From the NCBI GenBank assembly GCA_017554745.1, contig JAFZHS010000030.1, positions 1 through 64,000 of the forward strand: DNA of 64,000 nt, read 5' to 3'. The translations under genes were made by a program, and so were the position numbers. Numbering within the stretch: the stretch's first letter is position 1; every line of letters starts with the position of its first letter. Shown here in pieces: positions 26,690-32,375 of this stretch. The DNA is from Clostridiales bacterium (lineage in GTDB: Bacteria; Bacillota; Clostridia; Saccharofermentanales; Saccharofermentanaceae). The notes under the pieces are model-generated. The model did not search any database, was not told where the DNA came from, and was given only the letters and a program-made list of their open reading frames with translations.

Positions 26690-27166
26690 ATGACTATGAA
26701 TCAGGAAGACAGAACAACATCGACTTCTTCGGTCAGCGATTTAAGCAGTGTCGTGATTGATTTCTTAGGCTGTTCGTACCGTGCGACCATAAGGCTTTTC
26801 AAAGGCCTGCCGAACAGATTTAAGGCTTATGTAAAGCGCAAGATCAAAGAGTACCGCAACAGGCCGAAGAGAACCGATATCAACAGAGTCTATGTGGTAG
26901 TAGGCTATACGACCAAGAAGCGTGTTGATGAGAAGTTTAATGCCGAGAGACGCATGATGATAATCAGAAGAGGACTTCTGGTCTTGATCTTCGTTTTGGT
27001 CATATTTATTGCGATCGACAGGTTCACTAATCTTATCAATTACGGCGAGTTGTCCCAGATATTCGGTGTCGATTCATGGGGCGAGGTCATCGAGAACGAT
27101 CCCTTTGCCGATAAAACCACTGAAAGCACGGGCTTTGTCGTTCCGGGAACAAGTGAGACCAATTGA
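26690..27166 (+). CDS. Single-span membrane protein of unknown function
   Basis: A 158-residue protein with a basic cytoplasmic part (FKAYVKRKIKEYRNRPKR), one membrane span (GLLVLIFVLVIFIAID, near residues 94-110) and a short Thr/Ser-rich outside tail. A TATAAT at 26667-26672 with a weak TTTTTG 17 bases upstream may be its promoter, which would place the start site very close to the ATG; no clear ribosome site is seen, so the exact start is uncertain. No family recognised. Confidence 0.5.
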   Translation: MTMNQEDRTTSTSSVSDLSSVVIDFLGCSYRATIRLFKGLPNRFKAYVKRKIKEYRNRPKRTDINRVYVVVGYTTKKRVDEKFNAERRMMIIRRGLLVLIFVLVIFIAIDRFTNLINYGELSQIFGVDSWGEVIENDPFADKTTESTGFVVPGTSETN

Positions 27167-28753: not shown

Positions 28754-28783
28754 TAATCTGATACTTTAACCAGATAAACACGA

Positions 28784-28815
28784 GGGGTTGTGACATAAGT
28801 CACAGCCCCTTTTTG
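28784..28815 (+). terminator. gdhA terminator
   Basis: GGGGTTGTGAC / GTCACAGCCCC stem (one T-G pair) with an ATAA loop and TTTTT tail. Confidence 0.9.
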
Positions 28816-28943
28816 ATTATGACATTTATACAAAACGCGGTGATTTGCCACAGTTTTCTTTTATTGTTTATTAATAGTCAAATATGGTTCTGATGATATA
28901 ATTGAAGGACTTTTTTGAGATTATATGGAGATTTACGGTAACA

Positions 28944-30044
28944 ATGAGTAAACAAGACCGTGACTTCGAAGGGAATAAGCCCCGTAAGAAGTCAAAGGCC
29001 CCTCAATATATTGTAAGGTTTTTCGCAGCCATTGTCGGACTGGGTGTAGGCTTTTATCTTTATTGGGCATACCTGTTCGGCGGAACGTTTGTAGCGGTCC
29101 CTATCGTCAGTAAAGAAGATTATTCTACTATTGAGATCGAGCAGAACAGCAGTACTACGGGCGGAGATGTCACTTCCTCCTGGAAGGACGGCGGCCACAC
29201 AAGGCTTTATTACGATCCTGCCCATCCGATCATTGAAGTAAAGCAGAAGGACCCGGACATCGAGAATATCCTTGTCTTTGGTATCGATGCAAGGGGCACT
29301 GACGACTATACATGCCGTACTGACTGCATGATGGTCTTATCCATCAATAAGCGCGAGAACACGCTCAAGATCATTTCCCTTATGAGAGATACGGGCGTTT
29401 ATATCGGAGATACTCCCGAGACACTCGGCACAAGGCTCAACAAGCTTAATTCCGCTTACCATTACGGCGGAGTAGGTGAGATGATCAACACCATCAACAT
29501 CACATTCGGACTCGATATCCAGCGTTTTGTTATGTTCGACTTCGGAAGCGCTGCCGAGATCATCGATATGTGCGGCGGTGTCGATATCGACATAAAGCCC
29601 GAAGAACTTTCACACGCAAACCGCTATCTCGACGAGATGTATACGCTCGATAACAATACTTCACCGCACCTTACAAACAGCGGTCTGCAGACACTTGACG
29701 GACACCAGGCTGTCGCATGGTCAAGGATCAGATATCTCGATTCTGACTTTGTCAGAGCATCAAGGCAGAGGACTGTCGCTACGGCTCTGATGAAGAAGGT
29801 AAATGAGATGTCTTATGCCGCCAAGCTTCAGCTCCTAAACGATTCTGCGGGAGTTTTCGAGACAAATATGCGCTCTACTGATATAATGCGTGTGGCATTT
29901 AATTGTTTCGATTGTATTGATCATCTGGAAGAGCACAGAATTCCCGACGACGGACTCTATGAGATCCAGAATGATCCTTGGATGATGAAGATTGATTTTG
30001 CTACCCAGAAGCAAAAGCTTAACGAATATATTTGGGGTGAATAA
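28944..30044 (+). CDS. LCP (LytR-CpsA-Psr) family cell-wall polymer transferase
   Basis: A 366-residue membrane enzyme that attaches teichoic-acid-like or capsular polymers to peptidoglycan. A basic N-terminus is followed by one span (VRFFAAIVGLGVGFYLYW, near residues 25-45), then the LCP domain from about residue 95: NILVFGIDARG, LKIISLMRDTGVYIG with the pyrophosphate-binding Arg, INITFGLDIQRFVMFDF and AWSRIRYLDSDFVRASRQRT. The ATG at 28944 has GGAG upstream; an in-frame TTG at 28902 has none. The PP2C-like gene begins 2 bp after the stop, so the two work together or share control. Confidence 0.9.
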   Translation: MSKQDRDFEGNKPRKKSKAPQYIVRFFAAIVGLGVGFYLYWAYLFGGTFVAVPIVSKEDYSTIEIEQNSSTTGGDVTSSWKDGGHTRLYYDPAHPIIEVKQKDPDIENILVFGIDARGTDDYTCRTDCMMVLSINKRENTLKIISLMRDTGVYIGDTPETLGTRLNKLNSAYHYGGVGEMINTINITFGLDIQRFVMFDFGSAAEIIDMCGGVDIDIKPEELSHANRYLDEMYTLDNNTSPHLTNSGLQTLDGHQAVAWSRIRYLDSDFVRASRQRTVATALMKKVNEMSYAAKLQLLNDSAGVFETNMRSTDIMRVAFNCFDCIDHLEEHRIPDDGLYEIQNDPWMMKIDFATQKQKLNEYIWGE

Positions 30045-30046
30045 CG

Positions 30047-31894
30047 ATGAGTAAGACAGTAGCTACTTGTATTGCTGAGACTAATCTGATACAGGGAGAC
30101 CCTCAGGAGAATGTATTCTTTCTTACGCTTTCCCGTAAGATCGAAGATTTCCCTAATGAGTTCCTCAGAACTGCCAGATCAACATCTCCTATCCAGATCT
30201 GCGCAATATTCTCTACTATTGGTCCTGACAATCTTTCGGCAGTCTTGAATCTTGAGCTCAACGCAGAGCTCGAAAAGATCGCAGCAGCATGCTCAAACCA
30301 GGCAGTACTTGATTTCGACGGGTTTGCAAACCAGGTAATCAATAATCTTAACGTAAAAGTCTGCAATTTCGCTGCCAATAAGGGCAAGCAGTTTAAGACT
30401 TCCATGTCTATGTTTGTTATCGAGGGCGATATCCTCAGAGTAATCCATGTCGGTATTACCAAGGCAGTATTGTTCAGAAACAACCGTGTCATGCTCCTTA
30501 CAGAAGAGCAGACAGTCGCTCACAGATATGTCCAGATGGGCGCCATCCAGGCATCTGAAGAGCTCACACATCCCGAGAACATGAACCTTACCCAGTATCT
30601 CGGAAAGATGCCCCAGGAAGGTCCTGTCAATGCAGACAAGAAGGTCCACTTAAAGCTCCAGGACAACGACGAGTTGTTCCTTATGGGTGTCGGCCTTTCC
30701 AGAAAACTTCCTTCACAGATGCGCAATGCGATCATCGCAAAGCCTTTGTCTACTGAGGTCAAGGCTAAGGAGATCATCAATTCCGCATTGAGCTACGGCC
30801 TTAAGTCAGGCCTTACACTTATCGATATCAAGGTCGAATCCACATTCCTGCTCCCCGGTGATGCAGTTATCAACAGCAACCTGAGAACAGAAGCTACGAT
30901 GGCCGCAAGACCCGGCAATGCCGCTAAGGCAGCAGCTGCAGGCTCGAGCGCGTTCTTCGACTTCGATTCCGGCAACGATGCTTCCGATACGATCAACTAT
31001 GTTCCCGGAGATAATATCTCATCAGATTCCGATTCTTCTGAAGAAGAGCCTATCGTTAATGAGAAGAAGGAAAGAATTAAGACAATAATCATTCCTATTG
31101 TTATCTTTGTCGTTTGCGTATTGCTGGGCTTCGGTGTCACTTTCATGATCTTCAACATGAAGGATCTTATCAACTTCACTGAAGCTACCACAACGCTTCC
31201 TAATTCTGCAGGAACGGCGGTCCGCTACTGCGCTATGGATGAAGTAAAGGTATATTCCGAAGCTTCTTTGGATTCAACCGAAGTCGCAGTCCTTAACCGC
31301 GGTGATGCAGTAATCCTCCAGAAGGAGCTTGATAACTCATTCTCCCTTATCGTTACTAAGGACAATAAGAACGGTTATGTCATGAGCGCATATCTCCTGG
31401 AAGAGGATCCCACATACAATGATGCTACTTCCGAGATGACAGGCGATCCCACACCTGTTCCGACAGAGGATCTCTTTGAGACAACAACCCACATGACAAC
31501 AACAGCTGTCCAGACTGACCAGATCTGGAATACAAGATCTACGACCACAACTACAACTGATCCTAACTCTGTCGAACCCGGCGAGTCTGACCAGAAACCT
31601 GATCCGAATAACCAGGGCGGCGAGGATCCTAACAATGGCGGCAACGCGGATCCTGGCAACGGTGGTAACGCGGATCCTGGCAATGGCGGTAACGCAGATC
31701 CTGGTAATGGCGGTAACGCGGATCCTGGTAATGGCGGCAACGCAGATCCTGGCAATGGCGGTAACGCGGATCCTGGTAATGGCGGCAACGCAGATCCTGG
31801 TAATGGCGGTAACGCGGATCCTGGTAATGGCGGCAACGCAGATCCTGGCAACGGCGGCGCCGGCGGAGACACCAACGGTGACGGCAACACCTGA
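30047..31894 (+). CDS. PP2C-like membrane protein with SH3-like domain and Gly/Asn repeat tail
   Basis: A 615-residue protein of unusual build. Residues about 1-270 resemble a divergent PP2C-type phosphatase fold ([20 protein letters not shown] and [16 protein letters not shown] correspond to its late strands), but the metal-binding aspartates are not all evident, so it may not be catalytic. After an acidic linker comes one span ([20 protein letters not shown], near residues 347-366), then an SH3b-like segment ([31 protein letters not shown]) on the outside, a Thr-rich stretch, and nine copies of NADPGNGG ending in a short Gly-rich tail. It is the second gene of an operon with an LCP transferase. 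A role as inside-out wall sensor is inferred. Confidence 0.6.
31646..31861 (+). repeat. Nine tandem 24-bp coding repeats
   Basis: Nine in-frame units encode ADPGNGGN, within the tail of the PP2C-like protein. Units 4, 6 and 8 are identical and units 3 and 7 are identical, so the array has a 48-bp higher-order period that points to recent duplication of a two-unit block. Copy number may vary between strains. Confidence 0.95.
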
Positions 31895-31918: not shown

Positions 31919-31951
31919 AAGGGGTTATCTTTGCGATAACCCCTTTTCTTT
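31919..31951 (+). terminator. Terminator of the LCP/PP2C-like operon
   Basis: AAGGGGTTATC / GATAACCCCTT stem with a 5-base TTTGC loop, followed by TTCTTT. It lies between convergent genes. Confidence 0.85.
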
Positions 31952-32312
31952 AAGCGCTTCTGTCATTCTTGGATAATAGATAAAGACAGTATTGATTCAT
32001 GCTTATGCCTTCTTCTTTTGCGTGAAGGGAGAGCGATCTGTGAAGGCTCTTAGGAATGCGGATCTTAAATTGTCCGGAATAGTTTTCAAGATCGTCTGAA
32101 GCAGGTTCGGGAACAGGAATACCATCAGCAATAGCGGCTGTGATCCACTCTTTCTTTGCATCTTCGGCATTTTTAACAGCTTCGTCAATGGTATCACCGG
32201 TGCTTATACAGCCGGGAAGATCAGGGTAGCTTACAGCAAACCCACCCTCGTCAGGATCGGGAACAATAACTAATCTATAAGGAAGCTTAAAATAATCACT
32301 AACATTTTTCAT
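31950..32312 (-). CDS. HicB-family antitoxin-like protein, no HicA neighbour
   Basis: A 120-residue protein with a HicB-like N-terminal domain ([20 protein letters not shown] then [20 protein letters not shown]) and a C-terminal ribbon-helix-helix of the HicB/Arc type ([20 protein letters not shown]). This matches antitoxins of HicAB systems, which block an mRNA-cutting HicA toxin and repress their own operon. No HicA-like frame (about 60-80 residues, dsRBD-type) lies on either side, so it is an orphan. The start at 32312 is preceded by AACGAGG; a longer frame to 32375 runs into the promoter. It may be a stand-alone regulator. Confidence 0.82.
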
Positions 32313-32346
32313 CCTCGTTTTCCTCGCTTTCAAATCTTTTAAGTTT

Positions 32347-32375
32347 ATTTTATGTGGTGTCACATATGGTGTCAA
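32347..32375 (-). promoter_or_regulatory. Promoter of the hicB-like gene with repeat operator
   Basis: On the minus strand TTGACA (32370-32375) and TAAAAT (32347-32352) lie 17 bases apart. The spacer and -35 contain two direct copies of TGACACCA 11 bases apart, a plausible site for the ribbon-helix-helix protein. Confidence 0.65.

Follow-up and report, generated by a model that had tools for sequence, protein, structure and literature searches.

A predicted receptor-type PP2C pseudophosphatase encoded beside an LCP glycopolymer transferase gene in Saccharofermentanaceae

What is the role of a membrane protein with a degenerate phosphatase domain that is encoded directly behind a cell wall polymer transferase? 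The question was raised by two genes in the window, a stretch of 64,000 nucleotides from the genome of a Clostridiales bacterium of the family Saccharofermentanaceae (GCA_017554745.1). A sequence-only reading had proposed a wall-sensing regulator of polymer attachment, which would signal inward by or without dephosphorylation. Both open reading frames were found exactly where that reading had placed them. The LCP gene starts with ATG at 28944, encodes 366 amino acids and stops at 30042-30044. The second gene is co-directional, starts with ATG at 30047 after a gap of 2 bp (CG) and encodes 615 amino acids. The pair is situated on contig C23, where gdhA and an aspartate kinase gene flank it, and the neighbours are housekeeping genes on both sides (miaA, lexA and gdhA upstream; the aspartate kinase gene, efp and asp23-type genes downstream). 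The features of the locus are as follows.

28782..28811, + strand: intrinsic terminator after gdhA, putative upstream operon boundary (13-pair stem and T-run; consensus match only)
28875..28902, + strand: extended -10 promoter-like site 5' of the LCP gene (TG before TATAAT; 10/12 consensus)
28944..30044, + strand: predicted LCP (LytR-CpsA-Psr) glycopolymer transferase, 366 amino acids, with N-terminal transmembrane helix and extracytoplasmic LCP domain at residues 125-287
30047..31894, + strand: predicted receptor-type PP2C pseudophosphatase, 615 amino acids (profile, predicted structure and site table)
31919..31945, + strand: intrinsic terminator putatively closing the two-gene operon (11-pair stem, then TTCTTT; consensus match only)

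Promoter-like sites in the region are no commoner than expected by chance, so the site at 28875-28902 can be taken only as suggestive. As pattern matches, the terminators and this site would fit a two-gene operon, and the two genes are probably carried on one transcript. Chance can be ruled out as the origin of the locus because it is conserved in 70 named loci of the genus and in all other genera of the family that were examined. The named orthologues belong to Saccharofermentans sp., Mageeibacillus sp. UBA6976, 'Ruminococcaceae' and 'Clostridiales' from rumen and gut sources. The window's genus is coded here as g1 and its family as f1, with g17-g20 as further f1 genera; f3 (including g28 and g30) and f4 are other families of the same order.

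A HicB-like antitoxin gene (window 31950-32375, - strand; PF15919, PF05534), with no HicA-sized partner called alongside, is shared at this site by the window and its sister G023 and is absent from the other genus loci read. A 158-amino acid protein with one transmembrane helix and no significant Pfam match (window 26690-27166, + strand) is conserved by gdhA in many genus genomes. In G020, gdhA is broken into two frames (L051:7426-8755, - strand) by a frameshift or an assembly error.

The upstream gene is predicted to be an ordinary LCP glycopolymer transferase, as had been suggested. Its product matches PF03816 (LytR_cpsA_psr) with E 1.6e-32 and 113 bits against a cut-off of 24.6, and an N-terminal transmembrane helix could be read from the sequence. 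Motifs of the LCP catalytic type (R-T-D, MRDT and SRIRY..SDFVRASRQR) are visible, and the PDB matches include the structures of TagT, TagU and TagV, which it resembles as a typical LCP enzyme. Two more LCP genes are present in the same genome.

The second gene gave no Pfam PP2C match in a Pfam profile search. It matched the NCBIfam model Stp1_PP2C_phos with E 3e-14 and 53 bits, which is far below the equivalog cut-off of 230, and it was not assigned to the Stp1/IreP equivalog. The predicted organization of the protein is given below.

30047..30844, + strand: cytosolic PP2C fold without metal ligands, residues 1-266 (structure, alignment and site table)
30845..31084, + strand: acidic cytosolic linker, residues 267-346
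30986..31000, + strand: DTINY motif with Thr315, a candidate phospho-threonine site
31085..31144, + strand: single transmembrane helix, residues 347-366 (hydropathy scan)
31241..31396, + strand: extracytoplasmic SH3b domain, residues 399-450 (SH3_3 and fold match)
31415..31891, + strand: low-complexity extracellular tail, residues 457-615, ending in GNGGNADP repeats
31624-31858: minisatellite in the tail, 9.8 copies of a 24-bp unit

The N-terminal domain is predicted to have the alpha-beta sandwich fold of the PP2C/PPM family. An AlphaFold model built from 65 sequences reached pLDDT 84.9 and pTM 0.85, and in Foldseek it matched PP2C phosphatases over the whole domain with E 4.4e-14. Comparison by VIA gave Z 28.6 and an rmsd of 2.0 A over 236 residues with Streptococcus agalactiae Stp1 (2pk0), and Z 27-28.6 to the PP2C structures 2pk0, 1txo and 5f1m. 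The earlier proposal of a PP2C-like inner domain would have fallen with a model lacking this fold, and fold prediction bore it out.

The degeneracy of the domain was analyzed in a site table, in PPM1A numbering, of 70 genus sequences along with seven g20, four f4, three PrpC and five other class-level sequences. The window protein carries the substitutions E37Q, D38E, D60S, D146I, D239V, D282S and N283G. Four of these are fixed in the genus, where E37 is replaced by Q, D38 by E, D60 by S and N283 by G in 70/70 sequences. D146 is replaced by I, N or V, D239 mostly by L, V or I, and D282 by S, A, Y, F or T, mostly by the first four. The phosphate-binding Arg is also lost, and thus the residues that mark an active PP2C/PPM enzyme (E37/D38, D60, D239, D282 and the phosphate Arg) are gone from the genus protein. 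The ligands are replaced as well in the seven tabulated g20 sequences and, by alignment, in g17-g19, while the four f4 proteins, the three PrpC and the five other class members keep all catalytic residues. Since none of the 70 genus sequences retains the metal ligands, the domain is almost certainly a pseudophosphatase, in agreement with the degenerate domain recognized before.

It is still conceivable that the domain acts as a phosphatase through other ligands, because the exchanges of E37 to Q and D38 to E are themselves invariant, and the invariant Q20, E21, S56, G59, G216 and G255 point to selection on the old cleft, where they lie. This is very improbable, as none of D60, D146, D239 and D282 is kept, most of the replacements being Ser, Asn or hydrophobic residues, and PPM phosphatases require at least two metals, PHLPP2 with its single-metal site being inactive (PMC12002173). 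The loss of catalysis is read from the residues at these sites, and the domain might have acquired a new, metal-independent activity.

A functionless, decaying relic could also be imagined behind the missing catalytic residues. The pairwise dN/dS of the PP2C-like domain is 0.007-0.039 in both LCP-bearing and LCP-less species (estimated by the simple Nei-Gojobori method; dS approaches saturation in some pairs), and the frame is intact in nearly every genus genome, which leaves this explanation hardly any probability, and it was rejected. At least 98% invariance was found at 82 of the 271 domain positions, several of them at the former active site. The PP2C-like domain evolves far more slowly than the adjoining LCP protein; between L111 and the window, identity is 80% in LCP and 97% in the PP2C-like domain. 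A phosphatase fold, lost catalytic motifs and retention of the domain by selection together characterize a predicted pseudophosphatase.

The PP2C side of the membrane is predicted to be cytosolic because a basic, Lys/Arg-rich stretch follows the acidic linker on the N-terminal side of the transmembrane helix (positive-inside rule). The single transmembrane helix and the SH3b-like outer domain of the first description were both recovered. The ectodomain alone scored 30.1 bits with SH3_3 against a cut-off of 27, while the entire protein scored 25.7, slightly below it, and SH3_3 matches 54 of 57 orthologues at E 1e-3. The model of the SH3b domain has a modest pLDDT of 69, and its fold matches, weak at E about 3e-3, are to bacterial SH3b modules, those found in NlpC peptidases and in a phage endolysin. 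Peptidoglycan binding is not universal among SH3b domains.

The Gly/Asn/Asp/Pro repeat tail that had been noticed corresponds to the minisatellite. In the sister species locus L092, DNA identity is about 93% up to the tail, which is then an unrelated GQGE-type repeat. Depending on the species, the tail is of a Gly/Asn, Gln/Gly/Glu, Thr/Ser/Glu or Pro/Thr/Lys type. Most species retain the low complexity and approximate length of the tail, but not its sequence.

T315 forms the sole invariant column of the otherwise hypervariable linker. The strict motif D/E-T-x-x-F/Y was found in 65 of the 67 genus sequences with a linker, against 7.2 expected from shuffled linkers, a comparison which ignores kinship among the sequences. 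The other two linkers carry ATINY and QTQKF, and the looser T-x-x-[F/Y/I/L] fits all 67. No second occurrence of DTIN[FY]VP was found in the window's genome. The motif is specific to the genus and absent from most g20, f3 and f4 linkers; therefore, it cannot belong to the ancestral function. Some linker variants, ETTVF for instance, are similar to ETTS, the site at which the FHA protein GarA is phosphorylated (PMC12321487). The linkers of the f4 PP2C proteins (L066, L068, L070 and L071) share a conserved stretch of their own, LT[DE]...ERF..A...RQ.

Components of Ser/Thr phosphorylation are encoded elsewhere in the genome. FHA proteins were found in 38/38 genus genomes. A PASTA kinase, which the sequence-only reading had suggested looking for, is present as a single gene (PrkC) on contig C1, adjoining an intact prpC; the pseudophosphatase on C23 is not part of the prpC-prkC locus. 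Besides its three PASTA repeats, the kinase (L072:7330-9441, - strand) has a domain resembling an InlB B-repeat (Flg_new_2), and its P/T/G/N-rich tail is of a similar style to that of the pseudophosphatase.

The LCP-PP2C pair was found in g1, in all other f1 genera examined (g17-g20), in f3 (g28 and g30) and in f4, and is probably older than the families. Among the 70 named genus loci, LCP lies immediately upstream in 45, with 2-30 bp between the genes, is missing in 24 and is cut off by a contig end in one. Two of the LCP-less groups have gdhA about 240-690 bp upstream and the third has a different context. Whole-genome search of the genomes with LCP-less loci gave no close LCP, the best match having about 25-33% identity. 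The label of LCP presence changes four times on an 81-row tree, at least three of the changes being forced by starred branches. LCP was thus lost at least three times within the genus, and the pseudophosphatase was kept and constrained. Likewise, G049 of f4 keeps an intact PP2C and has no LCP match. An obligate LCP-PP2C module was rejected on the basis of this repeated loss, and LCP is a frequent operon partner but not a required one. In the LCP-less clades A, B and C (L102-L109, L118-L141 and L146-L161), the tails of A and B gain Lys and the tail of C halves, in 3-4 events.

These observations bear on two explanations that tie the protein to its neighbour. As a dedicated regulator or subunit, it would tell the adjoining LCP enzyme where or when to attach polymer. 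The adjacency in 45 genus loci, the other f1 genera examined, f3 and f4, and the likely shared transcript are in line with this role. It is weakened by the constraint on the pseudophosphatase in LCP-less members of the genus and by the opposite sides of the membrane on which the LCP domain (outside) and the conserved PP2C domain (inside) are positioned, and we regard it as unlikely. Hence, of the earlier proposal, the pairing holds across f1, f3 and f4 but fails at 24 of the 69 assessable genus loci, and the dedicated regulator of polymer attachment is not sustained. As to inward signalling by or without dephosphorylation, the loss of the metal ligands makes the second branch the likelier.

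Alternatively, the LCP enzyme may glycosylate the Ser/Thr-rich tail of the adjoining protein. A precedent exists in Actinomyces oris, where LcpA glycosylates the protein encoded by the neighbouring gspA (PMC6381275), so that an LCP gene adjoins the gene of the protein it modifies. GspA is a sortase-anchored surface protein, the neighbour here a transmembrane pseudophosphatase. In LCP-bearing species the tail has a high Ser/Thr content (median 33%), and that of the LCP-less clade C is short (median 64 against 133 amino acids) and Ser/Thr-poor (11%), in line with a substrate relationship. The LCP-less clades A and B, however, retain long tails with 20-28% Ser/Thr, the repeat of the window is rich in Gly/Asn/Asp, and f4 and f3 g30 have an LCP neighbour without any extracellular tail. 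A substrate role for the tail is thus rather doubtful.

Comparison across the order distinguished several stages. In f4, an intact PP2C with a long linker and a C-terminal anchor has almost nothing outside. The g30 proteins of f3 are near-intact, with D146 and the Arg changed and a C-terminal anchor. The g28 proteins of f3 have lost the Arg, E37, D146 and D239 and possess a transmembrane helix with a Thr/Pro/Ser-rich tail of about 120-130 amino acids, with no SH3b. In f1, all ligands are lost and the SH3b and tail are present. The order of events from active to dead would follow from this ladder itself and not from a rooted cross-family tree. In a class-level sample of 292 genomes, the nearest aligned PP2C relatives are all intact; no recognisable LCP was seen within a few kb on either side of the 17 loci with near relatives in this limited sampling, and several of them adjoin Ser/Thr kinase-like genes. 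One class-level protein (L242:3269-4876, + strand), an intact PP2C with a transmembrane helix and two LysM-like repeats outside, is possibly an active wall-sensing phosphatase. Ectodomain-bearing membrane PP2C proteins therefore occur elsewhere, but the dead, SH3b-bearing, LCP-linked form was seen only in f1.

On balance we favour, with some reserve, the view that the product of the second gene is a receptor or scaffold that spans the membrane once, faces the wall and has a PP2C pseudophosphatase as its cytosolic half; it would bind the wall outside and a phospho-partner or kinase inside, with a Thr switch. Its ancestor would have been an active, membrane-anchored PP2C phosphatase linked to an LCP gene. 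The SH3b and tail may hold or sense peptidoglycan, and the dead PP2C domain may bind a partner without dephosphorylating it and so shield, recruit or localise it at the wall. Such a partner could be PrkC or PrpC, a phospho-protein from the PrkC network, or a protein of division or wall synthesis. Thr315 would be phosphorylated, probably by PrkC, and then recognised by an FHA protein. The LCP enzyme would attach glycopolymer nearby and be dispensable for the core job of the receptor.

The genus protein shares its fold with the PP2C (PPM) phosphatases of the Stp1/PrpC/PstP type (Z 27-28.6), but it lacks their metal ligands and phosphate Arg, has an SH3b and tail outside and lies outside the prpC-prkC locus where the intact PrpC sits. 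PstP of Mycobacterium tuberculosis is membrane-anchored as well. The PASTA kinases PrkC and StkP are similarly one-pass proteins with an enzyme fold inside and wall-binding modules outside, if the SH3b does bind the wall; here a pseudophosphatase stands in place of the kinase and SH3b in place of PASTA. Bacterial pseudokinases are known. The animal proteins TAB1 and PHLPP2 have, likewise, a PP2C fold with lost metal sites and an ancestry of active enzymes (PMC12002173). They retain one metal (M2), unlike the genus protein, which has lost D60 and D239 too and is bacterial, single-pass and equipped with an ectodomain. A search of the open-access full-text literature for bacterial PP2C pseudophosphatases gave only eukaryotic cases, and the literature on Saccharofermentans gave nothing about an LCP/pseudophosphatase locus.

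Taken further, and tentatively, the protein could be a bacterial receptor pseudophosphatase which gave up catalysis and gained a wall-binding ectodomain, a phospho-protein-binding wall sensor that would be switched by phosphorylation of the invariant Thr in its linker and its recognition by FHA proteins, with its intermediate stages persisting in the order. One conserved locus in one bacterial order would thus present the steps by which an active phosphatase became a dead receptor and gained an ectodomain, and the living intermediates make a post-catalytic role of the phosphatase fold testable. PASTA-kinase signalling in bacteria of the rumen and gut would also gain a likely partner that faces the wall.
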